DNA of 35,930 bases from Acidocella sp. (GTDB lineage: Bacteria; Pseudomonadota; Alphaproteobacteria; Acetobacterales; Acetobacteraceae), in assembly GCA_027308685.1 (NCBI GenBank), contig DAIDEE010000043.1, positions 1-35,930 of the forward strand, written 5' to 3'. The notes beneath the pieces are model-generated. The model ran no database searches. It was not told where the DNA came from and saw nothing but the letters and a program-made list of their open reading frames with translations. The position numbers and the translations under genes were made by a program. Positions 2,775 to 34,500 of the stretch are shown here, in pieces (position 1 is the first letter of the stretch; each line of letters opens with the position of its first letter).

Positions 2775-2785
2775 AATTATCAATT

Positions 2786-3844: not shown

Positions 3845-3846
3845 GA

Positions 3847-5265: not shown

Positions 5266-5291
5266 GGTATTACCTCAAAAAAATTAAAAAC

Positions 5292-16350: not shown

Positions 16351-17028
16351 ATGAAAATTCTCCTGATTGAAGATGACCCCAAAACGGTGGCGTTCCTCCG
16401 AGCCGGCCTGGAGCCGGAAGGCTACGCAATTTCCTCGGCTGATGACGGCCGCAAGGGCCTGATTAGCGCCGCCAGTGGAGATTTCGACCTTCTGATCGTC
16501 GATCGGCTGCTACCCGGGCTTGACGGTGTGGCGCTGGTGAGAACCCTGCGTGCCGCCGGGATTCAGACGCCGGTGCTTTTCCTGACCGCGCTGGGCGGCA
16601 TCGATGACCGGGTTGAGGGCCTGCGCGCAGGGGGCGATGATTACCTGGTCAAGCCATTCGCCTTGGCCGAATTATCGGCCCGCGTTATTGCTTTAACGCG
16701 TCGCGGAAGCCCGGCCCCTAAAACTGCTGTGCTAAAAATCGCCGACCTTGAACTTGACCGTTTATCGCGCCGCGTCACCCGGTCGGGGAAAAAAATTGAT
16801 CTGAAACCCCGGGAATTTCAGTTGCTCGAATATTTGATGCTGCATGAAAACCAAGTGGTGACACGTACGATGTTGCTTGAAGCGGTTTGGGATTTTCATT
16901 TTGATCCGATAACCAGCGTGGTTGAATCCCACATCAGCCGGCTGCGCAGCAAGCTGGACCGCGGGTTCGGGCGGGAATTGATCCAAACCTATCGCGGGTC
17001 GGGCTACCGAATTTCCAGCGATGCTTAG
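16351..17028 (+). CDS. OmpR/PhoB-family response regulator
   Basis: The 225-residue protein has a receiver domain with acidic D8/D9, phospho-acceptor D51 in LLIVDRLLPGLDG, T79 in LFLTALGG and K101 in YLVKPF. A winged-helix DNA-binding domain (about residues 128-224) includes RREFQ-like LKPREFQLLEYLM, VVTRTMLLEAVW and VVESHISRLRSKLD ending in RGSGYRI. The set matches the CusR/CopR/TctD-type group. It should activate or repress the divergent efflux operon when phosphorylated by the kinase encoded next, with which it overlaps by eight bases. The transported substrate would be the signal, but the sequence does not show what it is. Confidence 0.96.
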   Translation: MKILLIEDDPKTVAFLRAGLEPEGYAISSADDGRKGLISAASGDFDLLIVDRLLPGLDGVALVRTLRAAGIQTPVLFLTALGGIDDRVEGLRAGGDDYLVKPFALAELSARVIALTRRGSPAPKTAVLKIADLELDRLSRRVTRSGKKIDLKPREFQLLEYLMLHENQVVTRTMLLEAVWDFHFDPITSVVESHISRLRSKLDRGFGRELIQTYRGSGYRISSDA

Positions 17029-18406
17029 AGACGCCGTCACGCCCATTACCCGTACCTCCAGCTTCCGCCTCGCCTTACAAAGTGCAGCCTTGTCGGTGTT
17101 CGGCGCCATCATCGTGTTCGCGATCATTTACCGCGCTTCGGAGACCACAGTCAGGTCCGCGCTCGAGGCCACCGTCACCAGCGAGCAGGCGGATGTCATA
17201 TCCGATGCGCAGGATGACGCATCCATCCTGAAGGCCGTGCAGGTTGCAACGGCGGAGTCCGACGGGACGTTTTATGCCTTGACGAGCCCCGACGGCACAA
17301 TATTGGCCGGTAATCTCCCCCTTTCACCGCAGGCCACCCGAACGTGGAATGGCTGGCGCACCATGGGCCGCGATGACGGGCTCAGCCTGCCGCCGCATGT
17401 TACGGCAATTCACGGCCTCGCAACCAAACTGCAAAATGGCAAGGTTTTGGTCGTCGCTGAAAATGCCAGCGCGCTGGAAGCGTTGAATGAGTTGATTCGC
17501 AATGCGTTTCTGGCGGTTTTTGGAACGATTTTGGCGATCGGCTTTGCGGGAGGATTATTTATTGCACGGCAAACATTAACCCGTGTTGAGAGCATGTCGA
17601 AAACCAGTCATGACATTATGGAAGGCGACCTAACACGGCGAATTCCCTTGAATGGCACCGGCGATGAATTCGACCGGCTGGCGACTAATTTGAATGCCAT
17701 GCTCGACCGCATCGAGGTTTTGATGGAAAATCTTCAGCAGGTCAGCAATGATATCGCCCACGACCTGCGGTCCCCGTTGGCACGCCTGCGCGAACATTTG
17801 GAACTGGCGCGTCACCATACGCATGAGCCAGAGACTCAAACTGCGTTTGACGAAGGGATCGCCCAGGTGGACTCCGCCTTGAGTATTTTTTCCGCTCTCT
17901 TGCGTATCGCCGAGGTGGAGGCCGGTGCCCGGCGCCGGGACTTCACAGTTGTCGATCTCTCCTCACTGCTGCACGACCTCGTTGAAACATTTGAAACCGT
18001 GGCTGAGTCAGAATCGATGACACTGACCGCGGCAATCGCTGATGGTTTATTGGTGGTGGGAGACCGGAACTTGTTGGCCCAGATGTTTGTCAACATCATC
18101 GAAAACTCCATCCGGCACTCACCGGCTGGCAGCAGCATTTTTATCGAAGCTGAGATCCGGCACCCTGACCATGTAGAAATTGTGATCTCCGACAACGGGC
18201 CAGGTATCCCGCCTGAGGAATACACGCGTGTGCTGCAGCGCTTCGTCAGAATGGATGCATCACGCCACAGCCCCGGCACCGGCTTGGGACTCGCTCTGGT
18301 GGCCGCTGTCGTTGAATTGCATAATGGCAAAATTGATCTTCGCACCAACAACCCCGGATTGCGCGTCAGCATTCTTCTGAATGGCGCGAGCGAACCCAAA
18401 GCCTAA
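17021..18406 (+). CDS. Sensor histidine kinase
   Basis: The 461-residue protein has TM1 (residues 20-38), a periplasmic sensor of about 120 residues, TM2 (162-182), a HAMP domain (to about 235), and a HisKA domain with H247 in VSNDIAHDLRSPL. The ATPase domain shows the N-box NIIENSIRH, G1 box DNGPGIP and G2 box GTGLGLAL. It is an orthodox inner-membrane kinase. The sensor domain has no His/Met-rich metal motif, so I cannot say whether metal or an organic compound is sensed. It overlaps the response regulator gene by eight bases. No terminator is evident after it before the next promoter region. Confidence 0.95.
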   Translation: MLRDAVTPITRTSSFRLALQSAALSVFGAIIVFAIIYRASETTVRSALEATVTSEQADVISDAQDDASILKAVQVATAESDGTFYALTSPDGTILAGNLPLSPQATRTWNGWRTMGRDDGLSLPPHVTAIHGLATKLQNGKVLVVAENASALEALNELIRNAFLAVFGTILAIGFAGGLFIARQTLTRVESMSKTSHDIMEGDLTRRIPLNGTGDEFDRLATNLNAMLDRIEVLMENLQQVSNDIAHDLRSPLARLREHLELARHHTHEPETQTAFDEGIAQVDSALSIFSALLRIAEVEAGARRRDFTVVDLSSLLHDLVETFETVAESESMTLTAAIADGLLVVGDRNLLAQMFVNIIENSIRHSPAGSSIFIEAEIRHPDHVEIVISDNGPGIPPEEYTRVLQRFVRMDASRHSPGTGLGLALVAAVVELHNGKIDLRTNNPGLRVSILLNGASEPKA

Positions 18407-18577: not shown

Positions 18578-18594
18578 TTGGCACATAATCTGCA
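18578..18594 (+). promoter_or_regulatory. Predicted sigma-54 (RpoN) promoter of the guanidine operon
   Basis: TTGGCAC-N5-CTGCA at 18578-18594 matches the sigma-54 consensus (YTGGCAC-N5-TTGCW) except for one base. It has the essential GG (18580-18581) and GC (18592-18593) exactly ten bases apart. Initiation about 12 bases downstream (near 18605) would start the RNA at the 5' edge of the riboswitch aptamer. Sigma-54 control fits a nitrogen-scavenging operon. No sigma-70 promoter of comparable quality is seen nearby. Confidence 0.6.
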
Positions 18595-18599
18595 TTGAA

Positions 18600-18708
18600 T
18601 TGTATGGGCTAGGGTTCCGGCCGGAGTTGTTTCCGGTGCTGGTCCGAGAGCTTCAACCTTCAGGGAGACATCCTGATGGTACACGGCGGGATAAAAGCCC
18701 GGGAGAGC
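18600..18708 (+). promoter_or_regulatory. Guanidine-I (ykkC) riboswitch aptamer
   Basis: The conserved blocks of the guanidine-I class occur in order: CTAGGGTTCCGG (18609-18620), GGTCCGAGAG (18641-18650), ACACGGCGGGATAAAAGCCC ending at 18700, and GGGAGA. Stems can be drawn: P1b CCGGA/TCCGG at 18621-18636, P2 TCAGG/CCTGA in 18659-18677, and P3 GGG/CCC around ATAAAAG. Guanidine binding normally turns expression on by blocking a terminator. The downstream carboxylase, UAAP pair and allophanate hydrolase support guanidine rather than the ppGpp, PRPP or nucleotide ligands of ykkC subtype 2. The outermost stem is weak and its 5' strand may lie at the transcription start. Confidence 0.93.
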
Positions 18709-18737
18709 ATTTGATGTGAGGATCACGTCGGGCTTTT
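18693..18737 (+). terminator. Riboswitch-controlled intrinsic terminator
   Basis: AAAAGCCCG (18693-18701), which is part of the conserved P3 of the aptamer, pairs perfectly with CGGGCTTTT (18729-18737). The two structures are mutually exclusive. Ligand-stabilised P3 would therefore free transcription into the operon, an ON switch. The T-run is short (TTTT followed by CC), so leakage is expected. Confidence 0.8.
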
Positions 18738-18834
18738 CCTACCGTGGTTCTCGTTTCTGGGTCGATCTGCCGATTGGAACGAGGTTACATATGATATTTG
18801 GTTTCCGTGTCTCCACCACCGCCGGGTGCCGCGC

Positions 18835-19785
18835 ATGAGTGCGCCGTATAAATTATTCTATGCCTCCGACATCCATGGTTCGGAAAAATGCTTCCTCAAA
18901 TTCATCAATGCCGGGAAGTTTTATAAAGCCAACGCTCTGGTGCTGGGCGGTGATATTTGCGGCAAAATGGTGGTGCCGCTGATCGCGCGGGGCAATCGTT
19001 GGGAGGCGCGTTTTCTGGGTCGCGACTTTGTCGCCGAAACGCCGGCTGAATGTGCCGAAATCGAAAAAAATATCCGGATGAACGGGTTTTATCCAGTAAT
19101 CCTGAGCCCGGAGGAGCACGCGCATTTCCAGGAAGACGAAACCGCGCGCAACGCGATGATCGACAAGGTGGTGCTGGAAGCAACCAGGCGCTGGATTGGG
19201 ATTGCCGAAGAACGTCTGCGCGGCACGGGCATCCGCTGCCTTATAAATGCCGGTAATGACGATGACGATTACATCGACCAGGCGCTACGGCAATCTGATG
19301 TGGTTGAAAATCATGATGGCGGCGTCACCAACCTTACTGACGAAGTACAGATGGCGGTGTGCGGCTATTCCAATACCACACCCTTTGATAGCCCGCGTGA
19401 GATGGCAGAGCCACAGCTACAAACCCATATTGAGAGCATTATCGCTCAGCTCAAATCGCCACGCGATGCGATCTTCACGCTGCATGTGCCGCCCTACAAC
19501 ACAGGGATTGATTCAGCGCCGATGCTTGAGGACGGCAAAGTTGTTACCAAGGGCGGTCACACGGTGATGAACCCGGTGGGGTCCACTGCTGTGCGCGGCA
19601 TCATCGAGCGGCATCAACCGATCGTCAGCCTCCACGGGCATATCCATGAATCCCGTGGCACCAAGCAAATTGGCCGTACGCTCTGCATCAATCCTGGCAG
19701 CGAATACTCCGAGGGCGTGCTGCGCGGCGTGCTCGTTACGTTCAAGGGCGCCAAGCTAGTTGGCCATCAGCTTGTTCAGGCCTGA
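18835..19785 (+). CDS. Calcineurin-like metallophosphoesterase
   Basis: The 316-residue cytoplasmic protein carries the five metal-binding blocks of the family. They are D12-x-H14 (ASDIHGS), GGD (38-40), GND (140-142, in INAGNDDDDY), H217 in LHVPP, and HGHIH (H267, H269, H271). Closest in layout are small phosphoesterases of the YfcE/Icc type with an inserted helical segment at about 55-130. Substrates of this family range from phosphodiesters and nucleotides to phosphoproteins; the substrate is not evident here. It is the first gene behind the riboswitch and 32 bases before the permease gene, so it is induced with guanidine degradation. A GTG at 18826 is an alternative start. I know of no established role for such an enzyme in guanidine breakdown. 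Confidence 0.87.
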   Translation: MSAPYKLFYASDIHGSEKCFLKFINAGKFYKANALVLGGDICGKMVVPLIARGNRWEARFLGRDFVAETPAECAEIEKNIRMNGFYPVILSPEEHAHFQEDETARNAMIDKVVLEATRRWIGIAEERLRGTGIRCLINAGNDDDDYIDQALRQSDVVENHDGGVTNLTDEVQMAVCGYSNTTPFDSPREMAEPQLQTHIESIIAQLKSPRDAIFTLHVPPYNTGIDSAPMLEDGKVVTKGGHTVMNPVGSTAVRGIIERHQPIVSLHGHIHESRGTKQIGRTLCINPGSEYSEGVLRGVLVTFKGAKLVGHQLVQA

Positions 19786-19817
19786 GTTTTTTCAACACCA
19801 AACGACTGGGAGACTTT

Positions 19818-21413
19818 ATGACCGTTAATTTTGCCAGAAAAGCCACCGGGCTGGTCCGACAGGCCGGCGCCAAGGATGTATTCATCTATAACGTTAATTT
19901 CATCAATATCGCCATCGGTGTGGCATTCATGTTCCTGTTCATGCCGAACGGGTCATATCCGGGGGTAAATATTTATATCTCCACCATCCTTTGCACACTG
20001 GTCGTACTCCCGACCTCGCTGGTTTACGCGATGTTCGCCTCCGCGATGCCGCGCTCGGGTGGTGAATATGTGTATGTGAGCCGTGCCACCAAGCCGCTGT
20101 TTGGGTTTGTGGCAAGCTGGAACTACACAATCTGGTGCTTCTTCTATATTGGCGTGCCGGCAGCTTTCCTCGGAAAGTACGGTATCTCGGCGCTCTTCCG
20201 TGAATTGGGTGTGTCCTTCGGTTCCTCGGCCATGACCACCTGGGGCGATTGGTTTAACACGCCATTGGGCACGGCGCTGACTGGCACAGTGCTCATTATC
20301 GCGTTCGCGGTGGTATTTATTTACGGCGTTTCACTTTACATGCGCATCCAGAACATCACCTTTGTGCTCGCCAGCATTGGGTTGGCGATCACCGCTGTGG
20401 TGCTGCTGAACCACACGCCGGATTCGACCGTTGCAGCCTTCAACCATTACGCTGGTAACTTCACCGGCAAACCTGACACCTACAAAGCGATTACCACGAA
20501 CCTCGGAACCAATGCTGTTACCGATCCGCCTTTTGACCTTAAGCAGACCCTCATTTCAATGACATGGCCGTTCACGGTGCTCGGCTTCTCCATCGCTTCC
20601 GCCTACATTGGTGGTGAGATTAAGGGAGCTAATCGCTCGCAGATGATCGGTATGCCCGGCTCGCTGTTCTACTCAGCGTTCTGGCTGCTGGTTATTTCAT
20701 ATGTCACGTTACATGCCTTTGGTTTTTCCTTCCTGGGCAATCTGGCAGCGGTAACGCCTGGTAACGTCAACTTGGGCTTTACCCCCACCTTCTCTGAGTT
20801 GGCGGCGGCACTCACCCAGCACGTGTGGCTGGTGCTTATCATCGGTGTGTCGTTCGCATTATGGACATACGCCTGGTTGCCTATCTATATCCTCACCGCG
20901 ACGCGTAACATTCTGGCTTGGGCATTGGACGGGCTTGCGCCTGCTAAAATTGCCGAAGTCAATGAGAACACCCATTCACCACTCATCGCCATCGCGGTGT
21001 CGTCGGTGCTGGGGATCGGCTTCCTGTGGCTCTACGCCTACGACGCTGCGTTCTCGACCATTTCGGGCTTCTTCGGTCAAGTATGTGGCACGTTCTTCCT
21101 CACCTCAATCGGGGCCATTGTATTCCCATACACACAGAAGGATATGTTCGAGGCGTCTCCCGTAGCGTGGCGGGTGGCGGGTGTGCCGGTGCTTTCCATC
21201 ATGGGCGTCCTCAGTGCCCTGGGCATGGGGCTGATCGCCTGGGCGTTCCTGAATGATCCGCAATCGGGCATCAGCTTCGCACAGCCTTTCATGCTGTATG
21301 TGAATGCGGGGGTTTTCCTCTCCGGCTTCATCTATTTTTACGCTGCCAAGTTCATCCAGGCGCGTCAGGGCGTGGATATCGACCTCGCCTTCGCCGAGAT
21401 CCCGCCGGAGTAA
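19818..21413 (+). CDS. APC-superfamily permease, probable guanidine (or guanidino compound) importer
   Basis: The 531-residue protein has about 12-13 hydrophobic segments with APC motifs: an unwound TM1 region (INIAIGVAFMF), SAMPRSGGEYVYVSRA near residue 75 (the family G-x-Y loop), and FGFVASWNY. It is related to amino acid/polyamine permeases. A GGGAGA ribosome site precedes the ATG. The riboswitch-controlled operon suggests it takes up guanidine or a guanidinium-bearing compound as nitrogen source; this is context-based. Guanidine riboswitches more often accompany small multidrug-resistance exporters or ABC importers. An export role is less likely because the operon degrades the compound. 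Confidence 0.9.
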   Translation: MTVNFARKATGLVRQAGAKDVFIYNVNFINIAIGVAFMFLFMPNGSYPGVNIYISTILCTLVVLPTSLVYAMFASAMPRSGGEYVYVSRATKPLFGFVASWNYTIWCFFYIGVPAAFLGKYGISALFRELGVSFGSSAMTTWGDWFNTPLGTALTGTVLIIAFAVVFIYGVSLYMRIQNITFVLASIGLAITAVVLLNHTPDSTVAAFNHYAGNFTGKPDTYKAITTNLGTNAVTDPPFDLKQTLISMTWPFTVLGFSIASAYIGGEIKGANRSQMIGMPGSLFYSAFWLLVISYVTLHAFGFSFLGNLAAVTPGNVNLGFTPTFSELAAALTQHVWLVLIIGVSFALWTYAWLPIYILTATRNILAWALDGLAPAKIAEVNENTHSPLIAIAVSSVLGIGFLWLYAYDAAFSTISGFFGQVCGTFFLTSIGAIVFPYTQKDMFEASPVAWRVAGVPVLSIMGVLSALGMGLIAWAFLNDPQSGISFAQPFMLYVNAGVFLSGFIYFYAAKFIQARQGVDIDLAFAEIPPE

Positions 21414-21417
21414 GATG

Positions 21418-22167
21418 ATGAGCGAGATCACGGAACATCAAGTGATCGCCGCGATCGCCGCCAAGGGGGGCATTGCGCGTCTCCTTGGCGGCAGAGCGAT
21501 CCATGCGGTCTGTGGGGAGTCTCTGCCTGCCACATTAAAGCGGCACTCGGCGGATATCGATCTGGTCACCCGCGGGCGCGACCGCAAAGCGCTGAAGGCC
21601 GCCATGACCGAGCTAGGCTGCGTGCCCGAACAAGAGTTCAACCTGCTGAACGGCAAGGAGCGGATGATGTTTCACGCTGGTGAAACAAAGATCGATATTT
21701 TTATCGACATCTTTCGGATGTGCCATACGCTCCAGCTGGGGCACCGTTTAGAGTTGCATCCGCTCACGCTCTCGCCGGCTGACTTGTTGCTCACCAAGCT
21801 TCAGGTATTTCATGCCGAGCGCAAGGACCTTTCCGACACCGCAGCCCTGCTGCTGGCCTGCGGCCTTGGCCCGGAAGGGCTTGGGGCGATCGATACCAAC
21901 TATATCGCCAAACTTCTTGGTAGCGATTGGGGTTTTTGGCGTACGGCCAGCGGTACGCTGAAAACTTTAGAGGCGCGCGCTGAGGAGATTTGCGGTACTC
22001 ATGAATTGGCGGTCGCTCTCAGACGCCATATCACTGAATTATTGCACGTGCTGGAGACCGCACCGCGCAGCCTCTCATGGCGAATGCGTGCCGTGATCGG
22101 GGAGCGCAGCCCCTGGTACGAACTGCCCGAAGAACCTGACGTCGATCATCTTCCCACCACCGCCTGA
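21418..22167 (+). CDS. Nucleotidyltransferase-fold protein (AbiEii/MNT-like)
   Basis: The 249-residue protein has a polymerase-beta-type nucleotidyltransferase core: LLGGRA (22-27), the catalytic pair D46-x-D48 in SADIDLV, a third acidic residue D93 in KIDIFID, and the AbiEii-like segment TLSPADLLLTKLQ (117-129) followed by KDLSD. The catalytic triad looks intact. GGAG lies seven bases before the ATG at 21418; another ATG at 21415 is possible. The gene begins directly behind the permease stop and ends 15 bases before the glutamine synthetase gene. No antitoxin-like partner adjoins it, so a toxin role is unlikely. An enzyme that modifies a protein (for example AMPylation) or a small molecule is plausible. 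Substrate is unknown. Confidence 0.75.
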   Translation: MSEITEHQVIAAIAAKGGIARLLGGRAIHAVCGESLPATLKRHSADIDLVTRGRDRKALKAAMTELGCVPEQEFNLLNGKERMMFHAGETKIDIFIDIFRMCHTLQLGHRLELHPLTLSPADLLLTKLQVFHAERKDLSDTAALLLACGLGPEGLGAIDTNYIAKLLGSDWGFWRTASGTLKTLEARAEEICGTHELAVALRRHITELLHVLETAPRSLSWRMRAVIGERSPWYELPEEPDVDHLPTTA

Positions 22168-22182
22168 CGAATAGGATTTCAC

Positions 22183-23550
22183 ATGGATATGACCAGCTCC
22201 ACCACCGTGCCCAGCGGTGCCAACGCTACGGCTTTGTCGGAAGCCGGGGTACGCTATTGCGCCGCCTCCTACGTCGATATGCACGGTGTTTCGAAAACCA
22301 AAATGGTACCCATTGCGCACCACGCCCAAATGCTCGGCGGCTCTGAATTGTTCACGGGTGCCGCAATGGATGGCGTGCCACAATCGGTGCATGACGAAGA
22401 AGTTGCGGCGATGCCTGATCCGGCCTCATGCAGCATTTTGCCTTGGAAGCCCGAGATCGCCTGGTTTGCCTCAGACCTCTACTGCCAGGGCAAACCGTTT
22501 GAGGCATGTTCACGCAATATCCTCAAACGCCAGTTAAACCGCGCCGCCGCCCATGGGCTGCAATTCAACCTCGGCATCGAGGCCGAATTTTTTGTGTTCA
22601 AGGCGCTGGAAGAGGGCGGGTTCACGCCGCTGTCGTCACGTCAAAATCTTGCCAAACCCTGCTATGATCTCTCCCGCCTATTGGATAATTTTGCCTGGGC
22701 CGATGAGTTGGTGAGTGCTATGAATACCCTGGGCTGGGATGTTTATTCCTTCGACCACGAGGACGGCATCGGCCAGTTCGAAATTGATTTTATGTATGCC
22801 GATGCTCTTACCATGGCTGATCGTTACACGTTCTTTCGCTTCATGGCGCATGAAATCGCCCGCAAGCACGGCGGCTTCGCCAGCTTCATGCCCAAGCCAT
22901 TTGCCGACCGCGCCGGGTCGGGCGCGCATCTCAATATGTCCTTGGCTGACCTCAAGACCGGTGCGAACCTGTTTGCCGATAAGGCCGACCCGCGTGGCTG
23001 CAAGTTGGGGGCGTTGGGCTACAAGTTTATTGCCGGTGTGCTCAGGCACCTGCCGGCGATCTGCGCGGTGGTGGCACCCTCAGTGAACAGCTACAAGCGT
23101 CTGGTGAAGCAGGGGTCCGCCTCCGGCTTCACATGGGCGCCAGTGCTGTGCTGTTATGGCAACAACAACCGCACCAATGCGCTGCGTATTCCCCTGGGCG
23201 GCGGGCGCGTGGAATTGCGGGCGGCGGATTCTGCCTGCAACCCTTACCTGGCAACTGCCATGGTGCTGGCGGCGGGGTTGGAGGGAATTGAGAACGACCT
23301 CGACCCCGGAATGCCCAATACCGAGAATATGTATATGAAGTCTGGCGCTGATCTCGCCGCACTTGGTATCAATACGCTGCCGGGAAGCCTTACCGAAGCG
23401 CTGGACGCCTTCGCCGCCGACCCAATAAGTGCGGCTGTGTTCGGTAGGTCAATGCATGAAGCATGGCTGGGCTACAAGCGCGACGAGTGGGCCAGCTATG
23501 CCTATCATGTTTCAGATTGGGAATATAACCGCTACCTCAGTTTTTTCTGA
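22183..23550 (+). CDS. glnT: Glutamine synthetase-like enzyme, type III/GlnT group
   Basis: The 455-residue protein has the GS beta-grasp N-terminus (ASYVDMHGVSKTKMVP) and the catalytic C-domain. Metal and substrate motifs include GIEAEFFVF (E133, E135), GQFEIDF (E200), GSGAHLNMS (H249), VNSYKRL, and the R/E cluster GRVELRAADSACNPYLA. It is closest to the GlnT/'type III glutamate-ammonia ligase' group rather than to GlnA. It would attach ammonia or an amine to glutamate with ATP. Y384 in ENMYMKS aligns with the tyrosine that GlnE adenylylates in GlnA. AGGA sits six bases before the ATG. In this operon it could assimilate ammonia released from guanidine, or act on an amine intermediate. Confidence 0.9.
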   Translation: MDMTSSTTVPSGANATALSEAGVRYCAASYVDMHGVSKTKMVPIAHHAQMLGGSELFTGAAMDGVPQSVHDEEVAAMPDPASCSILPWKPEIAWFASDLYCQGKPFEACSRNILKRQLNRAAAHGLQFNLGIEAEFFVFKALEEGGFTPLSSRQNLAKPCYDLSRLLDNFAWADELVSAMNTLGWDVYSFDHEDGIGQFEIDFMYADALTMADRYTFFRFMAHEIARKHGGFASFMPKPFADRAGSGAHLNMSLADLKTGANLFADKADPRGCKLGALGYKFIAGVLRHLPAICAVVAPSVNSYKRLVKQGSASGFTWAPVLCCYGNNNRTNALRIPLGGGRVELRAADSACNPYLATAMVLAAGLEGIENDLDPGMPNTENMYMKSGADLAALGINTLPGSLTEALDAFAADPISAAVFGRSMHEAWLGYKRDEWASYAYHVSDWEYNRYLSFF

Positions 23551-23574
23551 GTCTATAGAATGGGCATCACGTCG

Positions 23575-23584
23575 CCCCCCCCCC
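23575..23584 (+). repeat. Poly-C tract (C10) between glnT-like and UAAP1 genes
   Basis: Ten consecutive cytosines lie in the 59-base spacer, 25 bases before the UAAP1 start. Such homopolymers are prone to slippage. It is not inside a gene, so length changes would alter mRNA leader structure or spacing, not reading frame. Confidence 0.95.
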
Positions 23585-23609
23585 TGCGTCTCAAACCTGC
23601 GAGTTATTT

Positions 23610-24392
23610 ATGCTTGATTTGAATAACCTTACTCCTGAGCAATACCGCGCCCGTTACGAAGCGCTGCAGGCGCGGGCACGTTCGCGCGCCGCCGCACCAA
23701 AGCCGGTCGCGCTATTCGCAGAAATTCCGTCGGCGGATATCATCGAAACCGATACACTTCCGGCTGGCGCCTATGGGTATTTTCATTTGCCGCGCGGTAC
23801 CGGTGTGCGGATTATAAACGATAGCGGTACGGCGGGGGCCGCGTTTTTTATATGGAACGCCGATGAAACATCGGAGCGTTACAACGCTGGTGATACCGCA
23901 AAACTACAATGGACCACACGGCTGACCACGGGACGGGTGCTATTCTCGGACATGGGGCGGGTGCTTGCCTCCATCGTGGCCGATAGCGGCGCAGGGCATG
24001 ATACCATCATCGGCCCCAATTGCGCCCTGCAAACCGCCGGCCGCAACGGGCGTGACAATCTGCGGGCGGCAGCGGCCAAGTTTGGGCTTTCGCGGCGTGA
24101 CGTTGGGCCGGCGCTCTCATTATTTTCCCCGGTGGCGGTGGATGATACCGGCTGTATGCGCTGGCGTGGCAACCCACCCGTGGGTGCACAATTGGAGTTC
24201 CGCGCCGAGATGAACCTGCTGGTCGCACTCTCCAACACCCCTCATGCCCTTAGCCCGGTCCAGGAAGCGGCGGGGCCTGTAAGCTACATCATCTGGCGTA
24301 TGCCCGCTGCCGGCGCAGATGACTTGTGCCGTACTTTCACCGAGGAAGCGGCGCGCGGTTTTATCAATACCGACAAGGTGTTTGCCGCATGA
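23610..24392 (+). CDS. Urea-amidolyase-associated protein UAAP1, subunit of carboxyguanidine deiminase (CgdAB)
   Basis: The 260-residue protein has the DUF1989 fold seen in UAAP1. The segments FFIWNADETSERYNAGDT, LFSDMGRVLASIV and GHDTIIGPNC mark the active-site region. The metal-binding cysteine cluster present in the partner is missing here, which fits a heterodimer with one catalytic subunit. The UAAP1/UAAP2 pair, long annotated as urea-related, was shown to be carboxyguanidine deiminase, converting carboxyguanidine to allophanate and ammonia. It overlaps the second subunit gene by four bases (ATGA). Which of the names cgdA and cgdB applies to which subunit I cannot confirm, so no symbol is given. 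Confidence 0.9.
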   Translation: MLDLNNLTPEQYRARYEALQARARSRAAAPKPVALFAEIPSADIIETDTLPAGAYGYFHLPRGTGVRIINDSGTAGAAFFIWNADETSERYNAGDTAKLQWTTRLTTGRVLFSDMGRVLASIVADSGAGHDTIIGPNCALQTAGRNGRDNLRAAAAKFGLSRRDVGPALSLFSPVAVDDTGCMRWRGNPPVGAQLEFRAEMNLLVALSNTPHALSPVQEAAGPVSYIIWRMPAAGADDLCRTFTEEAARGFINTDKVFAA

Positions 24393-25009
24393 GCCGTATT
24401 ATCTCTGACATTTTTGTACCCGCCCGGGCCCCCTATTCTGCCGTGCTGAAAACCGGCCAGGTGATGCGTATTGTTGATTTGAAATCACAGCAGGCCGTGG
24501 ATGCGTTATTCTATAATGCCCATGATACCTCGGAACGTTATTCAGCGCAGGACACCCTGGCCGCCCAGGCCGCCGCGGGCGGCCGCTACGACCTCACCAT
24601 CGGCACGGTTTTGCTCTCCAACGAACTCCGGCCTTTGGTGAAACTGGTAGCTGATACCTGCGGTTTTCATGATACCTGTGCTGGGGCGTGTTCATGTGAA
24701 GCAAACACCGTGCGCTTCGGGCATGAGACGCGCTTCATGCACGCCTGCCGGGAAAATTTTCTGCTGCTGGCAGCCAGGCACGGCATGAGCAAACGCGATA
24801 TTGTCTCGAATGTAAATTTTTTTATGAACGTGCCGATCCGCCCGGATGGCGAACTGACGGTCGATGATGGTGTTTCGGCCCCCGGCGGCTACGTGGAATT
24901 GGAGGCGCTGATGGACACGCTGGTGCTCATCTCGAATTGCCCACAGGTGAACAACCCCTGTAACGGCTTCACACCCACACCCATTCAGATCATCATCAGC
25001 GAACCATAA
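24389..25009 (+). CDS. Urea-amidolyase-associated protein UAAP2, probable metal-binding subunit of carboxyguanidine deiminase
   Basis: The 206-residue DUF1989 protein shares YNAHDTSERYSAQDT with its partner. It adds a cysteine-rich segment C91-GFH-DTC-AGAC-SC (C91, H94, C97, C101, C103) and NNPCNGF near the C-terminus, likely metal ligands. With UAAP1 it should hydrolyse carboxyguanidine to allophanate. The ATG at 24389 overlaps the UAAP1 stop. Its own stop shares a base with the carboxylase start (TAATG), so four consecutive genes are translationally linked. The family assignment is firm; the functional statement rests on characterised homologues. Confidence 0.92.
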   Translation: MSRIISDIFVPARAPYSAVLKTGQVMRIVDLKSQQAVDALFYNAHDTSERYSAQDTLAAQAAAGGRYDLTIGTVLLSNELRPLVKLVADTCGFHDTCAGACSCEANTVRFGHETRFMHACRENFLLLAARHGMSKRDIVSNVNFFMNVPIRPDGELTVDDGVSAPGGYVELEALMDTLVLISNCPQVNNPCNGFTPTPIQIIISEP

Positions 25010-28000
25010 TGTTTACGAAGGTTCTCATTGCCAACCGCGGCGAGATACTCGCCCGCGTCAGCCGTACGTTGCGTGCGATGAACATCGCCTCTGTCGCGGT
25101 GTATTCCGATGCCGACCGTTTTGCGCCGCCCGTGCTGGCGGCGGATGAGGCGGTACGGATCGGCCCGCCCGCAGCGGCAGAGAGTTACCTCAACATCGAC
25201 GCCATTATTGCTGCCTGTCTGGCGACAGGAGCCCAAGCGGTGCATCCGGGCTATGGTTTTCTCTCCGAGCGGGTGGAATTTGCCGAACGTCTGGCGGCGG
25301 CAGGGATCAAATTCATTGGTCCGCGCCCAGCACATTTGCGCGACTTTGGCCTCAAGCATACGGCGCGTGAATTGGCCCGGCTTGCAGGTGTTCCCATGCT
25401 GCCCGGCACGGGTGTGTTGGCCGATGCTGCTGGCGCACTGCGCGAGGCGGCGCGTATCGGCTACCCGGTCATGCTGAAGAGTAGTGCCGGGGGCGGCGGA
25501 ATTGGCATGGTGCTATGTACCACTCCAGAGGAATTATCAGAGCGCTTTGCCTCGATCGCCCGTCTGGCTGTTAATAATTTTGGCAATGCCGCTTTGTTTT
25601 TGGAAAAATACGTATCCCGTGCACGCCATGTCGAGGTGCAAATTTTTGGCGATGGTAAAGGCGGCGTAGTGGCTTTGGGGGCCCGCGATTGTTCATTGCA
25701 ACGTCGCAATCAGAAAGTGGTTGAGGAGTCCCCTGCCCCTAATCTGCCCACGGTCACGCTTGCCGCTTTGCAGGATGCTGCCGTCGCGCTGGCTGGGTCA
25801 GTGAATTACGAATCCGCTGGCACTGTGGAATTTGTTTATGACGCACAGGCGCAAAAATTCTACTTCCTGGAAGTAAATACACGCTTGCAGGTTGAGCATG
25901 GCGTGACCGAGGAAGTTTACGGCGTGGACCTGGTGCGCTGGATGGTCGAGCAGGCAGCGGGCGAATTCACACTGCCGCGCGCACTCTCGCCGCAAGGTGC
26001 AGCCGTGGAGGTACGGGTATATGCCGAGAACCCGGCGGAAAATTTTGTCCCCTGCGCTGGTATCCTTACCGCCTTTGCTCCGGGTCCAGGTTTGCGCGTG
26101 GATACATGGGTGGCGGCAGGAACGGCGATTTCTCCCTATTATGATCCGATGCTGGCCAAGTTCATTGCCACCGGGGCGACACGCGATGAAGCGTTAGTGA
26201 AAATGCGAACAGCCCTTTCGCAGAGTACGTTATTCGGTATCGAGACGAATCTGGGTTACTTGCAGGAGGTGTTAGCACTTCCGGAATTTTGCGCCGGCGA
26301 GATGACAACGCGCACGCTGGCGCACTATACTTATATGCCGCGCAGCGTTGCAGTGCTGGATGGCGGTGCCTTATCCAGTTTGCAATCCTTGCCTGGTCGC
26401 CTTGGCTTTTGGGAAGTCGGGGTGCCACCTTCCGGCCCGATGGATGACCGCAGCCATGCTCTGGCAAACGCGCTATTGGGCAATCCAGCTTCTGCCGCCG
26501 CGCTGGAAATCACCCACACCGGCCCGACGCTGCGCTTCAACACCGCTACCACCATCGCGCTGACAGGGGCTGCCATGGCGGCGGCGTTGGATGGTACAAC
26601 AGTACCATTGTTTGTGCCGGTGCCGGTGCAGGCGGGGCAGATTCTCACACTGGGCAGCATTACAGGGCCCGGTCAGCGCAGCTATCTGGCGGTAAGCGGC
26701 GGTTTTGCGGTGCCGGATTACCTGGGCAGCAGTGCCACCTTCACGCTCGGTGGCTTTGGGGGGCATAATGGCGGGGCGCTACGCACCGGTGATACATTGC
26801 GCCTCAACGTGCCTCTGCCATTACCAGCGCATATCCCGGCAGAACGGCCCGTGCTCACGCATCAATGGCAGCTTGCCGTGCGGTATGGCCCGCACGGCGC
26901 CCCTGATTTTTTCAATGCCGATGATATTGAAGTTCTGTTTTCATCCACCTACGAAGTTCACCACAACTCTGCCCGCACCGGCGTCCGTTTGATCGGCCCT
27001 AAGCCGAATTGGGCACGCGCTGATGGTGGTGAGGCCGGGCTGCATCCTTCCAACATCCACGACAACGCTTACGCGGTCGGCGCCATCGACTTCACCGGCG
27101 ACATGCCGATTCTGCTCGGGCCAGACGGCCCCTCGCTTGGTGGGTTTGTTTGTCCGGCGGTGGTGACCCGTAACGACCTCTGGAAACTGGGACAACTCAA
27201 GCCCGGCGATACGGTAAGGTTTGTCCGCAGCGACGCCGCGCCGGCCATTATCGAGACCCGTAAGGACACGGTCATCCGGCGCGCCGGCGACGAGAATATC
27301 CTGATCGAATTCGGCGACATGAAGCTGGATTTCGCGTTGCGTTTGCGTGCACAGGCATTGCGTGACGCACTGCAGGCCGAAAATATGCCCGGTGTTATCG
27401 ACCTTACACCGGGCATTCGTTCATTACAGGTTCATTTTGATTCCACCACAACGAATGTGGCAAAAATCACTGCGGCGGTGGACTGCATATTGCCGCACCT
27501 GCCAGCCCCCGAGGATATGGTGGTGGAGGCCCGCACGCTTTATCTGCCACTTTCCTGGAATGATTCTCAAATTCGCCTGGCGATGCGAAAATATCAGGAA
27601 ACAACCCGCCCGGATGCCCCGTGGTGCCCCGACAATATCGAGTTTATCCGCCGCATCAACGGGCTTTCGAGCATCGACGAGGTGAAGCGAATTATCTTTG
27701 CTGCCTCCTACGTGGTTCTGGGTCTGGGCGATGTGTATCTCGGAGCGCCAGTGGCAACACCGTACGACCCGCGCCACCGTTTGGTGACCACCAAATATAA
27801 CCCGGCACGCCCATGGACACCGCAAAACGCTGTCGGGATCGGTGGGGCTTATATGTGCGTCTATGGTATGGAAGGGCCGGGTGGTTATCAGCTTTTTGGC
27901 CGTACCATTCAGGTATGGGATACCCACCGGTGTGCAGTACCTTTTGAAAAACCCTGGTTACTGCGGCATTTTGATCAAATTCGCTTTGTCGAAGTCTCCG

Positions 28001-28470
28001 AGGCTGAGTTGCTTGACCTGCGCGAGGCATTTCCAAATGGGCGCTACATGCCGCGTATTGAGCAGACCACATTCTCACTGCGGGCGCATCTGGATTTTTG
28101 TGCCCAGAACGCCGGGAGCATTGGTGATTTTCAACGTACCCAACGCGCAGCCTTCGCCGCCGAGCGTGAGGCATGGATCGCCCGAGGGCTGCTCAGCTTC
28201 GACGAGCCAGACCTGCCGCCGCCGGTGCCTGAGGACACATTGCAGCCAGGAGCACGCAGCATCGCAGCCCTGGTGCCTGGTAGTGTCTGGCAAATCCTGA
28301 AGTCAGCGGGGGAGATGGTGGCCGCCGGCGAGCCGCTGATGATTCTGGAGTCCATGAAGATGGAAGTGCGCGTTCTTGCCCCTGCCGCCGGACGCTTGAC
28401 CAGCCTGAGTGCCACCCCGGGCCAAGCCGTGCGCGCCGGCCAGCGGCTAGGCGTTATTGAACCGGAGTAA
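25009..28470 (+). CDS. Biotin-dependent guanidine carboxylase (urea carboxylase family)
   Basis: The 1153-residue protein has four parts. Biotin carboxylase spans 1-445 (GGGGIGM 161-167, VEVQIFGDG 208-216, EVNTRLQVEH 288-297). An AHS2/KipA-type domain spans about 455-740 (PSGPMDD). An AHS1/KipI-type domain spans about 755-985 (PGIRSLQVHF, DPRHRL, GIGGAYMCVYGMEGPGGYQ). A C-terminal biotinyl domain carries K1117 in ESMKME. It uses ATP and bicarbonate to make carboxyguanidine, or allophanate if urea is the substrate. Length and order match urea/guanidine carboxylases, not the fused urea amidolyase. Riboswitch and UAAP pair point to guanidine. The two activities differ by few active-site residues; I did not assign those with certainty. 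Confidence 0.95.
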   Translation: MFTKVLIANRGEILARVSRTLRAMNIASVAVYSDADRFAPPVLAADEAVRIGPPAAAESYLNIDAIIAACLATGAQAVHPGYGFLSERVEFAERLAAAGIKFIGPRPAHLRDFGLKHTARELARLAGVPMLPGTGVLADAAGALREAARIGYPVMLKSSAGGGGIGMVLCTTPEELSERFASIARLAVNNFGNAALFLEKYVSRARHVEVQIFGDGKGGVVALGARDCSLQRRNQKVVEESPAPNLPTVTLAALQDAAVALAGSVNYESAGTVEFVYDAQAQKFYFLEVNTRLQVEHGVTEEVYGVDLVRWMVEQAAGEFTLPRALSPQGAAVEVRVYAENPAENFVPCAGILTAFAPGPGLRVDTWVAAGTAISPYYDPMLAKFIATGATRDEALVKMRTALSQSTLFGIETNLGYLQEVLALPEFCAGEMTTRTLAHYTYMPRSVAVLDGGALSSLQSLPGRLGFWEVGVPPSGPMDDRSHALANALLGNPASAAALEITHTGPTLRFNTATTIALTGAAMAAALDGTTVPLFVPVPVQAGQILTLGSITGPGQRSYLAVSGGFAVPDYLGSSATFTLGGFGGHNGGALRTGDTLRLNVPLPLPAHIPAERPVLTHQWQLAVRYGPHGAPDFFNADDIEVLFSSTYEVHHNSARTGVRLIGPKPNWARADGGEAGLHPSNIHDNAYAVGAIDFTGDMPILLGPDGPSLGGFVCPAVVTRNDLWKLGQLKPGDTVRFVRSDAAPAIIETRKDTVIRRAGDENILIEFGDMKLDFALRLRAQALRDALQAENMPGVIDLTPGIRSLQVHFDSTTTNVAKITAAVDCILPHLPAPEDMVVEARTLYLPLSWNDSQIRLAMRKYQETTRPDAPWCPDNIEFIRRINGLSSIDEVKRIIFAASYVVLGLGDVYLGAPVATPYDPRHRLVTTKYNPARPWTPQNAVGIGGAYMCVYGMEGPGGYQLFGRTIQVWDTHRCAVPFEKPWLLRHFDQIRFVEVSEAELLDLREAFPNGRYMPRIEQTTFSLRAHLDFCAQNAGSIGDFQRTQRAAFAAEREAWIARGLLSFDEPDLPPPVPEDTLQPGARSIAALVPGSVWQILKSAGEMVAAGEPLMILESMKMEVRVLAPAAGRLTSLSATPGQAVRAGQRLGVIEPE

Positions 28471-28474
28471 CAAC

Positions 28475-30250
28475 ATGATCCCCGAATTATTGGAAATTCC
28501 CGCCCTGCACGCCGCCTTTGCCGCCGGGTTAACGCCTGCGGCACTTGTGGACTCGCTCTACGATCGCATCGAAGCCTGGCCTGACAAAACGGTGTTTATC
28601 TCGCTGGTGCCGCGCGAGGATGCGCTGGCGGTGGCTCATAGCATGGATATGTCTCTGCCGCTGGCCGGAATCCCTTTTGTGGTGAAGGACAATATCGATG
28701 TGGCGGGGATACCCACCACCGCCGCCTGCCCGGATTTTGCCTATATTCCCACGGCGGACGCCACGGTGGTGGCCAGGCTACGCGCCGCGGGGGCGATATT
28801 GCTGGGCAAAGCAAATCTGGACCAGTTCGCCACCGGATTGAACGGCACGCGCTCCCCCTATGGAGCACCACGCTCAGTGTTCAATGCTGATTACATATCT
28901 GGCGGCTCGTCCTCGGGTTCGGCGGTGGCAGTGGCGGCGGGGCTGGCGGCATTCGCACTGGGCACCGATACCGCCGGCTCTGGCCGTGTCCCCGCCGCGT
29001 GCAATAACATTGTAGGGTTGAAGCCCAGCATCGGGCTGATCCCCGCCACTGGCGTGGTACCCGCCTGCAAGAGCCTCGATTGCGTGGCGGTATTCGCCAA
29101 TTCCGCCGCCGATGCCATGGCGGTGCTGCAAGCCGCGCAAGGGTTTGACGCGGCAGACGCTTATTCCCGCGCGGCGCACACCGTGACATTACCGGCCGTT
29201 CCAAGGGTGGGCGTTCTGGCAGCCCGAGACCGCGATTTTGCGGGCGATGAAGCCGCCGCTGCGCTCTATCAAGCCGCCGTTCAACAGGCCGCAACACTTG
29301 GCTGGGCGGTGCAGGAGATCGACTACGCGCCATTTCGTAACATCGCCGCATTACTTTACGGCGGCGCTTACGTTGCTGAACGCCTGGCCGCGGTGAAAGC
29401 ATTTTATGATGTGCACGCCGCTTCATTCGAGCCTACAGTGCGCGAGATTATTGGCGGTGCCCGAAGATTTTCTGCAACCGACGCCTTTGCCGACATCTAC
29501 AAGGTGCAGGCCTTGCGCCATGCCGCTCTGGCCGAACTGGCTAGGGTCGACGCATTACTTCTTCCCACGGCCCCCACCATCTTCACCGTGGCGCAGATGC
29601 AGGAACAGCCGATCGCTCATAATTCGACACTGGGGCTTTACACCAATTTTGTGAACCTGCTCGACCTTGCGGCCATCGCCCTGCCTGCCGGGTTTCGCAG
29701 CACCGGTTTGCCTTTTGGCGTCAGCATTATCGGCCCGGCATTTTCTGAAGCCTCACTGGCAGGTTACGCCAGCACCTTGCACGCGGCACTAGGTGCGGGA
29801 GCCGGGCTGTGCCGCGCAACGCCACATTCAAGTTTTATTCAGCCGGAGCCTGAGGACGTGATGCTGGTGGTGGCTGGGGCGCATCTGAGCGGGATGGTTC
29901 TCAACCATGAGTTGGTCAATCTCGGTGCCCGGCGGGTATCCACCACCACGACCGCCCCCGACTACAAGCTTTACGCGCTGCCTACCACACCGCCGAAGCC
30001 TGGTTTGGTGCGTAGCCCTGGCTTCATGGGCACAGGCATTGCCGTGGAGATGTGGGCGCTAACACCAGAGGCTTTTGGTCGGTTCGTGGCGGCGTTACCG
30101 GCCCCTATGGGGATTGGCCGGGTCAGCTTGGCCGATGGAACGGTTCACCCAGGATTTTTGTGCGAGGCTTACGCCTTGGCGGGAGCCACCGACATCACCG
30201 AACACGGTGGCTGGCGGGCCTATTTGAAATCTCGTCAAAGCATCATGTGA
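28475..30250 (+). CDS. atzF: Allophanate hydrolase
   Basis: The 591-residue protein is an amidase-signature enzyme with the Ser-cisSer-Lys triad: K71 in VVKDNIDV, the GGSSSGSA loop (143-150), and nucleophile S169 in GTDTAGSG. A C-terminal domain of about 120 residues (MLVVAGAHLSGMVLNHELVNLGAR to the end) is the AtzF/DUR1,2 decarboxylation domain that completes allophanate breakdown to ammonia and carbon dioxide. I chose the ATG at 28475, with GGAG seven to eight bases upstream and only four bases after the carboxylase stop. It ends the operon and finishes the guanidine-to-ammonia route. Confidence 0.95.
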   Translation: MIPELLEIPALHAAFAAGLTPAALVDSLYDRIEAWPDKTVFISLVPREDALAVAHSMDMSLPLAGIPFVVKDNIDVAGIPTTAACPDFAYIPTADATVVARLRAAGAILLGKANLDQFATGLNGTRSPYGAPRSVFNADYISGGSSSGSAVAVAAGLAAFALGTDTAGSGRVPAACNNIVGLKPSIGLIPATGVVPACKSLDCVAVFANSAADAMAVLQAAQGFDAADAYSRAAHTVTLPAVPRVGVLAARDRDFAGDEAAAALYQAAVQQAATLGWAVQEIDYAPFRNIAALLYGGAYVAERLAAVKAFYDVHAASFEPTVREIIGGARRFSATDAFADIYKVQALRHAALAELARVDALLLPTAPTIFTVAQMQEQPIAHNSTLGLYTNFVNLLDLAAIALPAGFRSTGLPFGVSIIGPAFSEASLAGYASTLHAALGAGAGLCRATPHSSFIQPEPEDVMLVVAGAHLSGMVLNHELVNLGARRVSTTTTAPDYKLYALPTTPPKPGLVRSPGFMGTGIAVEMWALTPEAFGRFVAALPAPMGIGRVSLADGTVHPGFLCEAYALAGATDITEHGGWRAYLKSRQSIM

Positions 30251-31589: not shown

Positions 31590-34500
31590 TTAGAAGGCAA
31601 TCCGCAGTCCTGCGGTAAAGCTGCCTTGGTCAGCACCGCCACGTACCTCACCACTGACCCGGGCATAGCTGTAGGCACCCGAAGTGATCCTCACCGTGGC
31701 TGAAGCGCTTACCTGTGCAAACTCAGGCGACACATGTGGGGAGGTGATGGTGGTCCGCAGGCCAGCCAACGAGGCATCCATCGTCGGGTGCAGCAGGTTG
31801 CCGGTATCAACACCAGCCCCCAGGTTGAACCGGTAGGTGAACAGGGTTGCCAGCGGGTCGGTGACCGCCGAGCCGCCCTGCACGCCGATCATGCTGCGCT
31901 CACCACTACCTGAGTAGCTGCTGGTGCTGAGCGCTGCCACGGCGTTACCTTCACTTGATGAGTTCTGCGTCACGTCCTGGAAGATTTCGCGGGCGTATGG
32001 CGAGACAGCGAAGCCACCCATGGTCAACGGCATATTGATTCCCAGGCTCACCAGCGCTTCGTTGCCGCCAACATTGTTAGTGGACAATGTGGTGTTAGGC
32101 GCTGTTGGGTCCGGCCGGTGACTGGAGGTATTGCTCAACCCATAACTGGCCAAGCCGTCGACAACAAACGACCCGACCGGAATTTGGCCATAAACAAACC
32201 CGGCGTTTTCATCCACCGTACCTTTACCGATGTTGGCATTTACATAAGTGTCGGTATGTGAGAACCCAACGCCGACCCGGGCGATGCCCATCGTCGCCAG
32301 ATCCATGCCCACGGTGAACTGGCTGAGCGTGCTGGAGAAACCGGAGGCATAACCATCGCCCTTTTCGCTGCCCAGTTGTACCGAGGCATTGCCCCACACC
32401 AGCGGTGCGGATTGCGGGTTCTGGTCGATCTCACTAAGGCGGCCTTCAACCGAATCCGACAGTGCCAGCCCGGCCTCCGGCATGACTGCCAGGTTGGCGC
32501 CATGCACCTCACCATCCAACGCCTTGGCAAATTGCGGTATGGCGGAGAAAGGCTGCGCTTGTGTGTCGGCCAGCAGGACAATTTGCGGCGTTGTTAGCGT
32601 GCCCAAATTATACAATTCGTCGAGCACTTTACCGGCCGACTTGGCATTCTGGTTGCCGCCAGTCAGCAGGTCTGCATAGGACGCCGGGCCCACGCCGACG
32701 ACCAGTTCCGAAACACCGGCAATGGTCGGCCGCTGGCTATCCACAATCAACCCGGAAACCCGCACCACCACGCCGTTATAGTCTGTGCCGGTTGCGGTTT
32801 GCGCCCCAGCGATGGTGTAGGTTTGCCCAGTCGCAATGGTGCCGCCATCGGGCACCAGGCTAATCGCAGTATCGGCAAGGTTGATATAGCCGGTGGCATC
32901 CACCTGACCACCAACGCCCGGCGCCGTAACCCCGAGAATGAGCGTGCTGCCCAGCGATGACGCGAAGTTGCCGGTGATAGTCTGCGGCGCGTTGAGTTGC
33001 AGGTTGCCGGTATTGGTGAGCGTCCCCAACCCACCGTTAGCTGAGGCATTATCCGCCAACAGTAAATTACCGCCCAGGCTGATATTGCCGGTGGTGGCGG
33101 AAATCACCCCGCCGGTAAGCGTACCGATGGTGCTGCCCGAACCGCCGGTGATGGTGAGGTTGCCGGCACCGGCGATGATGCTGCCGGAGATCAGGTTGGT
33201 ATTGTAAATGCCGCCGATGCTGCCGGCCGCAATAATCGCAATCGGGTCGATTGCGATGATGGTACCGGAGTTGGTCAGCGTGCCGATCGAGCCAGTACTA
33301 CGGATCGCGGTATAAAGCCCTTCGATCATGTTGGTGTTGACCAGCGTGCCGATATTGCCGCCAACCACGCCAATTGTGCCACCGTAAATGGTGCCGTTGT
33401 TGGTCAGCATGCCGATGCTGCCATTGGCCGCCACACCAGTTTGTGCGCCAGAAATAAGGGCTCCCGTGCCATTGCTCAACGAACCAATATTCCCGTTGGC
33501 CTGCGCGCCCGTATTCGTTGTGCCAATGATGCTCCCGGTATTGCTGAGCACCGCGATATTGGTCTGCGAGAGCACACCGTAGGAATTGCCCTGGATCAAC
33601 CGGGTATTAGTGAGAGTCCCGATGGTCCCGGCATTCACGCCATTAAGCGTGCTGCCGATGATGCTGCCGTTATTGCTGAGCGAACTTATGCTGCCACCGC
33701 TGTAAACACCGGTCTTACTGCCGAGGATCAGTGCCGCGATGGTGGTGTTATCCAGGTTGGCGATACCGCCGACTGCGTAAACACCGTCGCCGTTAGCACC
33801 AGTAATGGTACCCGAATTGGTTAATCCGGTGATGTTGCCGCCGGTGCTGACGCCGTTCAATCCGCCAGTGATGAAAGCTGACGTATTGTTTGTCAGGCTG
33901 CCAATGCCGGTGTTGGCAAACACGCCGTCGCCACGGGTGCCGCTGATGGTGCCGCTGTTGCTGAGCGTACCGATGCTGCCACCGCTATAAACACCGGAAT
34001 TACCGCCAGAGATCAGCGCCGTGGCGCCCGTATTGCTGAGGGCTCCAATATTGGCTTGAGAAAATACGCCTTCCTGGTTGCTGCCAATGATAGTGCCGGA
34101 ATTGCTCAGCGTGCCGATGCCGCCGAGACTACGCACCCCGGAATTACCCCCGGAGATTAACGCCAGCGTGCCGGCATTGGTCAGGCTATCAATGGAGCCA
34201 AGCGCGATAACTCCAGCGTTATTGACCCCATGAATGGTGCCGCTGTTGCTGAGCCCGGCGATACTGCCGGTACCGAACACACCTGTATTGCCGCCATAAA
34301 TCAACGCCAACGTGCCGGTGTTGCTCAAGCCGCCAATATCACCTTGAGAGAACACGCCTGCGCCGTGCGTACCGATGACACTGCCGGTATTGCTCAACGT
34401 ACCGATGCCGCCAAGCCCGCGGACGCCGGTATTACCCCCGGAGATCAACGCCAGAGTGCCGGAATTGGTGAGGCTATCAATCGAACCCAGCGCAATCACA

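Follow-up and report, generated by a model that had tools for sequence, protein, structure and literature searches.

A permease, a nucleotidyltransferase and a metallophosphoesterase as a possible three-part uptake system in a guanidine operon of Acidocella

Known operons with a guanidine-I riboswitch can encode a carboxylase, a carboxyguanidine deiminase and an allophanate hydrolase. In this study, we analysed a stretch of 35,930 nucleotides from Acidocella sp. (the window) that carries such a riboswitch and the full pathway, but in which a cassette of a metallophosphoesterase (MPE), an APC-superfamily permease and a nucleotidyltransferase (NTase), followed by a glutamine-synthetase homologue (GS), lies between the two. 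The guanidine operon itself is a variation on a familiar type; any novelty lies in the trio of MPE, permease and NTase, and in a conserved tail on the permease. In nitrogen control by PII, GlnD and GlnE, uptake or assimilation is set by the addition and removal of a nucleotidyl mark. By analogy, the trio would work alike as a nucleotidyl writer and eraser, although its NTase and MPE are separate proteins, the NTase has no match to the GlnE domain, and the proposed target is the permease. A guanidine-I riboswitch ahead of an APC permease is also seen in comammox Nitrospira, whose operons combine a guanidinase with a permease predicted to import guanidine, but phosphoesterases and nucleotidyltransferases appear nowhere in the portion of that article available to us (PMC11410670). 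A search limited to the open-access literature yielded no description of such a gene set.

The trio occurs in both bacteria and archaea. Scanning a collection of species genomes with an MPE alignment gave at least 485 relatives, and the best 80 of these, which by record title come from archaea, Chloroflexota, actinobacteria and others, were analysed. A permease homologue is present at 74 of the best 80 loci, an NTase at 60 and all three genes at 56, and a permease or NTase lies within 300 bp of the MPE in 76. Many of these loci are cut by contig ends; in the 43 flanked by 5 kb or more on each side, the first three of these counts become 41, 35 and 34. Two loci scored by BLAST as having no NTase (L015 and L019; L and G numbers are our labels for loci and genomes) have a divergent one directly following the MPE. 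For 17 of the 20 NTase-less loci (all but L008, L036 and L056), the whole genome was searched with an NTase profile, and 17 of 17 gave a match; four of the matches were weak or partial, among them the two divergent NTases adjoining the MPE. L008 was taken as belonging to G287, where an NTase is found, and the plasmid of Thermomicrobium roseum, searched alone, gave no NTase match (0/1). A plasmid of the archaeon Halobellus limi encodes an MPE and an NTase with an APC permease adjoining, and has no annotated guanidine genes in the 20 kb examined.

Gene content at the level of whole genomes points the same way. Among 151 genomes of the phylum of locus L078 (titled Chloroflexota), searched at limits that we chose (E of at most 1e-30 for the MPE and 1e-60 for the permease), the NTase is found in 32, the MPE in 31 and the permease in 31; the MPE and permease sets are identical and are contained in the NTase set. 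Copy numbers of the three genes are equal in 26 of the 31, the exceptions being G667, G691, G785, G786 and G796. In the window's own class, four of 337 genomes have the NTase, and three of these four have a strong MPE. Judged by gene content, then, the NTase, the MPE and this type of permease make up an almost obligate trio, in most cases with neither GS nor guanidine genes seen alongside. Unlinked genes hitch-hiking together are an unlikely explanation, since the trio co-occurs even where its genes lie apart. A defence system was considered and rejected: with PADLOC, two MPEs were only weakly matched (27.6 and 30.1 bits) and two NTases had no match at all.

The permease of the window (positions 19,818 to 21,413, forward strand, 531 aa) belongs to the APC superfamily by its PF13520 match (68.1 bits, cut-off 27). 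In a tree built with 30 other APC permeases, 78 of 78 trio permeases fall in a single clade (FastTree support 0.971), permeases shorter than 430 residues and the near-identical loci L107, L108, L088, L014 and L042 having been left out. The comparison set, drawn from eight of the same genomes, comprised 30 of 63 PF13520 matches, with the higher-scoring ones predominating, and three of the 30 lie inside the trio clade: L159 and L166, both trio permeases that had been drawn a second time, and L172, which stands beside an MPE. Every complete trio permease examined (74/74) ends in [ILV]-P-x-[ED]-COOH, as does none of the 27 other APC permeases that remain once those three trio permeases are set aside. 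Since the trio permeases were collected by BLAST with the window's permease, this count describes that clade rather than all APC permeases adjacent to an MPE; L009, L031, L058 and L079, cut by contig ends or runs of N, were left out of it. In a second set, from the search of 151 genomes, the tail is present in 30 of 30 loci examined, and 47 of 50 permease matches extend to the last two profile positions. Within the tail, Pro at -3 is present in all 74 sequences, Gly at -14 in 72 and Glu at -5 in 68; in the window, its codons lie at 21,369 to 21,410 of the forward strand (GVDIDLAFAEIPPE). In 54 loci, the pairwise distances of MPE, NTase and permease are correlated (Spearman 0.31-0.51), and median pairwise identity is 45% for the MPE, 35% for the NTase and 26% for the permease. 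We read these identities as enzymes held and a cargo-determining part left free. With a median identity of only 26% in the permease, a fixed tail on so variable a carrier is striking.

Both enzymes retain the residues expected of active catalysts. The MPE (18,835 to 19,785, forward strand, 316 aa) is weakly matched by PF14582 and PF00149, its Pfam scores being under the cut-offs (22.5 vs 28.2 and 21.1 vs 21.5 bits). Calcineurin-like metallophosphoesterases carry the di-metal motifs DxH, GD, GNxD, H and GHxH, and the MPE has these motifs, with D12, H14, G39, D40, N141, D142, H217, G268, H269 and H271 invariant in 56 sequences; the closest folds to its model (pLDDT 96.2) are aq_1956 and TT1561, then SbcD/Mre11, with Rv0805 lower. 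The NTase (21,415 to 22,167, forward strand, 250 aa), assigned by its invariant catalytic residues and a fold model, has 15 positions invariant in 53 aligned sequences, including G25, D47, D49 and D94. Its only Pfam matches at E of at most 0.001 are PF14907 and PF08843, both below cut-off (23.0 vs 31.2 and 20.2 vs 22.5 bits), the GlnE domain PF03710 is not matched, and neither enzyme reaches any NCBIfam cut-off. Nor does the NTase fit an AbiE toxin-antitoxin pair, in which AbiEii would adjoin an AbiEi antitoxin: the AbiEii score is the 20.2 against 22.5 bits just given, its neighbours are the permease and GS, and PADLOC returned no match. The solved folds nearest to its model (pLDDT 93.2) are ANT(2'')-Ia and LnuA (E 3e-4 to 3e-3, TM-score by target 0.46-0.63), from which it differs in its partnership with a permease and an MPE and in sequence, at 15-17% identity. 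Conservation of both sets of catalytic residues suggests that no trio can do without either activity, whether the two are opposed or act in sequence.

Co-occurrence, mostly matching copy numbers, a single permease clade, the same tail and retained catalytic residues are what the sequences themselves provide. We tentatively propose, at somewhat less than an even chance, that the permease, NTase and MPE make up a three-part uptake system in which the two enzymes gate the permease by nucleotidylation. The NTase would attach a nucleotide to the permease, or to something bound there, and the MPE, assumed to be a phosphodiesterase, would take it off again, so that addition and removal would open and close import. 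The conserved tail, recognised by its free end, would serve as a docking or gating element, while the variable core of the permease would set the cargo, to be matched by the catabolic genes nearby. The wider claim, that this is a new form of transporter control in which the NTase and MPE, addressed through the Glu/Asp-ended tail of an APC permease, nucleotidylate it or a bound partner in a reversible manner, as a stand-alone cassette in many catabolic operons of bacteria and archaea, is possible but more doubtful.

Several observations weigh against gating of the permease by nucleotidylation. No Tyr, Ser or Thr of the tail is invariant, so that the tail itself is unlikely to hold the modified residue, and the folds nearest to the NTase are small-molecule adenylyltransferases, which would better fit modification of the cargo. 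The NTase is not invariably adjacent to the permease, and one genome of L078's phylum, G723, has an NTase with no MPE or permease at the limits used. In L009, an ordinary APC permease that lacks the tail (2331-3995) lies between the MPE and a second riboswitch. Within the window's class, G384 has an NTase and a permease on a contig that stops before any MPE position, and a search of this genome, listed as 68% complete, found no MPE; we read the class's two weak MPE-profile matches (E 5e-5 and 1.5e-10) as belonging to other phosphoesterases. The counted genomes are, moreover, related, and the counts are not independent events.

One alternative, which seems unlikely, is that the imported small molecule is what the NTase nucleotidylates, to trap or activate it, that the MPE later frees the molecule or cleaves the conjugate, and that the tail docks the enzymes at the cytoplasmic mouth of the permease, where cargo would be processed on entry. 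The resemblance of the NTase to ANT(2'')-Ia and LnuA fits, as does the tendency of each permease to have its own pair of enzymes (the equal numbers in 26 of 31 genomes), and a docking tail would be expected to be conserved. The cargoes implied by the various loci are, however, unlike one another, spanning guanidine, ureohydrolase substrates, loci of choline-kinase and sarcosine-dehydrogenase type, an MTTB methyltransferase and sugar-kinase loci, and despite this the NTase and MPE are more alike than the permease. Guanidine, in addition, has no hydroxyl group to nucleotidylate.

A further alternative, which we consider improbable, invokes a diffusible nucleotide signal, made by the NTase and broken down by the MPE, that regulates the permease or its operon. 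A maker-breaker pair with invariant active-site residues would suit such a role, and in four loci (L124, L125, L126 and L133) the NTase adjoins a protein with four CBS domains; proteins of this type often bind adenine nucleotides. A shared signal would not need the copy numbers of pair and permease to match, as they mostly do, and the NTase has only weak fold matches to nucleotide-signal synthases (DncV, E 0.2). The protein with four CBS domains is, in its own right, a possible nucleotide sensor of the system. The preliminary description of this DNA, made from the sequence alone, had set an NTase against a phosphoesterase, and this was the right sort of pairing to seek.

The operon of the window begins with the aptamer of a guanidine-I riboswitch (18,599 to 18,707, forward strand; RF00442, 79.8 bits, gathering score 63), the only RF00442 match in the genome; its assignment to guanidine, rather than to ppGpp or PRPP (subtype 2), is based on the family match and the pathway genes. 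Directly 3' of it lies a terminator-like hairpin followed by CTTTTCC (18,710 to 18,732, forward strand), which is weak evidence on its own, a scan for such hairpins giving 16 sites against 12.6 in shuffles. Eight genes follow, all on the forward strand and with short or negative intergenic gaps. The NTase starts one base past the permease stop, and GS (22,183 to 23,550) begins 15 bases after the NTase, as had been claimed. After it come the two carboxyguanidine deiminase subunits, UAAP1 (23,610 to 24,392; TIGR03425, 214.7 bits, cut-off 205.95) and UAAP2 (24,389 to 25,009; TIGR03424, 308.6 bits, cut-off 284.7), a urea/guanidine carboxylase (25,009 to 28,470; TIGR02712, 1674.7 bits, cut-off 1303.85) and an allophanate hydrolase (28,475 to 30,250; TIGR02713, 747.2 bits, cut-off 511.05). 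Some starts were picked by eye, including that of the allophanate hydrolase, whose open reading frame opens at 28,457, and that of UAAP2 was placed at an ATGA overlap. The model TIGR02712 is itself named urea carboxylase, and the assignment of this enzyme to guanidine is from context. The preliminary description thus had the pathway complete, each member scoring above its NCBIfam cut-off, and its three extra enzymes (MPE, NTase and GS) are real; it overlooked the permease between MPE and NTase, which proves to be the regular companion of these two enzymes.

The trio is not peculiar to guanidine, a possibility ruled out by the finding of UAAP or carboxylase genes in none of the best 80 MPE loci, two of which, L008 and L009, have the riboswitch and end before any pathway. 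Instead, Pfam matches place the trio beside a variety of neighbours, some recurrent and some single picks: a kinase of choline/ethanolamine type, Fe-ADH, aldehyde dehydrogenase, the arginase family and parts of ABC importers; DAO with GCV_T (sarcosine/dimethylglycine-dehydrogenase type), PfkB with SIS, and a cyclase; and MTTB, FmdA, isochorismatase, C-N hydrolase, AllG and FGGY kinase. A constant trio amid changing pathways suggests that it serves import as such. The guanidine-I riboswitch occurs in 43 of 398 genomes of the window's phylum, at 58 sites including the window's own, and trio genes are absent within 1.5 kb at all 29 of the loci examined besides the window's, so that the trio is rarely put to use for guanidine. 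L009, labelled Bacillota by a metagenome bin and possibly misassigned, has two guanidine-I riboswitches, one ahead of an MPE (58% identical) and one ahead of a permease 64% identical to the window's. The trio probably serves several cargoes, of which guanidine is one. Within this operon, guanidine is most likely the cargo, because the riboswitch and the pathway are guanidine's and the riboswitches of L009 precede an MPE and a permease. That all the extra enzymes work in series on a guanidine-derived conjugate, as had been offered as a second idea, would suit their shared riboswitch-controlled operon, but with UAAP or carboxylase genes at none of the best 80 loci it is very improbable.

Within the genus, 18 of 38 genomes have a guanidine-I riboswitch match, 17 of them above cut-off. 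Among the 17 genus riboswitch loci besides the window's, UAAP1/UAAP2 are nearby in six, a transporter of the substrate-binding-protein type (recognised by eye) in five, MPE and permease in four (G287, G300, G308 and G320) and GS in one (G180), with one more cut off (L106). The trio and an ABC-type importer look like alternatives within these loci. Riboswitch, MPE, permease, NTase and GS share a single contig in G300, G308 and G320: G308 repeats the entire operon, G300 runs MPE-permease-NTase-GS-UAAP1 to the contig end, and in G320 MPE-permease-NTase-GS is followed by a different gene. In G287 the same elements are distributed over three contigs, two of them holding differing copies of NTase, GS and pathway (L088 and L089) and the third the riboswitch, MPE and permease; GS is identical in L107 and L088, and G308 and G287 are thus not independent. 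More than one genome therefore keeps these genes together under guanidine control, and their recurrence in G300, G308, G320 and G287 rules out a strain-specific oddity. In G180, the riboswitch is followed by GS, UAAP1, UAAP2, carboxylase and hydrolase in that order; the 14 kb examined contain no trio gene, and the genome gave no NTase match. GS and the trio are therefore separable.

The label of type III glutamine synthetase given to GS in the preliminary description holds in so far as the TIGR03105 cut-off is passed (560.2 bits, cut-off 469.6), yet among solved structures it is best matched by 9qur, named glutamate--methylamine ligase, and by 7cql, a GmaS entry. According to the portion of PMC7948447 at hand, the ammonium site of ammonia-using glutamine synthetase includes Asp50 and Glu304 (B. 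subtilis numbering). GS has no such canonical residues; it has Thr58 and a GmaS-like loop with Trp318 (residues as given in that portion of PMC7948447), and capture of the released ammonia by GS, as had been supposed, is doubtful because they are missing. Compared with RhGmaS, as far as the same text describes it (PMC7948447), GS keeps Lys30, Tyr147, Asp177, Glu179, Glu186 and Trp300 and differs in having Thr, Ser and Asp for Ala48, Gln175 and Asn188. Five of the seven residues of the RhGmaS amine site are kept, the two changes being Gln175 to Ser and Asn188 to Asp. GS is also about 43-46% identical to plasmid-borne GlnT. Across the clade of GS linked to guanidine genes or the trio, Thr58, Ser189 and Asp202 stand where RhGmaS and three GlnT of glnT-glxBCD clusters have Ala, Gln and Asn; the second GS of L034 and of L072 has Ala at the position of Asp202. 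As aligned, the amine site fully matches neither the ammonia-type enzyme nor the methylamine ligase. The Asp was considered as guanidinium-specific and this was dropped, as archaeal glutamine synthetase 8oow also has Asp.

GS recurs with guanidine operons, as had been expected, including some without the trio (L110 and L240, the latter with no trio gene in 19 kb), and it also accompanies trio genes at loci where guanidine genes were not seen, close to ureohydrolases or AllG-like proteins (L034, L036, L072 and L118). It is a separate add-on that probably joins glutamate to an amine derived from guanidino compounds, as a glutamate--amine ligase in their breakdown. The idea that the NTase AMPylates GS in place of GlnE, with the MPE reversing it, draws on the 15-base spacing in the window and on a Tyr of GS in the region where type I enzymes are adenylylated, but it is scarcely credible given guanidine operons that have GS and neither NTase nor MPE, the presence of GS in just 3 of the best 80 MPE loci, the genome's own GlnE elsewhere, the lack of a GlnE domain match in the NTase and the same Tyr in GlnT of glnT-glxBCD clusters. 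The dedicated assimilation module does not stand in the form first proposed.

Two ureohydrolases near the trio are of interest in themselves. That of L083 (192-1280) has as its best PDB match 7esr, a guanidine hydrolase entry, and that of L072 (17146-18159) metformin hydrolase A, both ahead of agmatinases. Thr105, His222 and Trp313 are site residues of the N. inopinata guanidinase in the accessible text of PMC11410670; by eye, through two separate alignments, the third of these is apparently not Trp in the L072 protein. AllG-like proteins lie near GS and the trio in two phyla (L072 13249-14499, by Pfam; L118 2339-3619, by eye). Elsewhere in the window, an RND pump and an outer-membrane factor, with what by eye are a membrane-fusion protein and a two-component regulator, lie 5' of the riboswitch (10,774 to 18,406). 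On the reverse strand, cytochrome bd oxidase genes adjoin TauE and a protein of metallo-beta-lactamase fold (2,786 to 7,910), by eye a cluster of sulfur-dioxygenase type, and a protein of 1420 aa made of many similar repeats (31,590 to 35,852), with no Pfam match, looks autotransporter-like by eye.

Altogether, the trio supplies a candidate guanidine importer, and its conserved tail makes the proposed control of the permease directly testable. If the proposal is true, a role would be assigned to two enzyme families that here score below Pfam and NCBIfam cut-offs, and archaea, Chloroflexota, actinobacteria and some proteobacteria would run a nucleotidyl switch on nutrient import.

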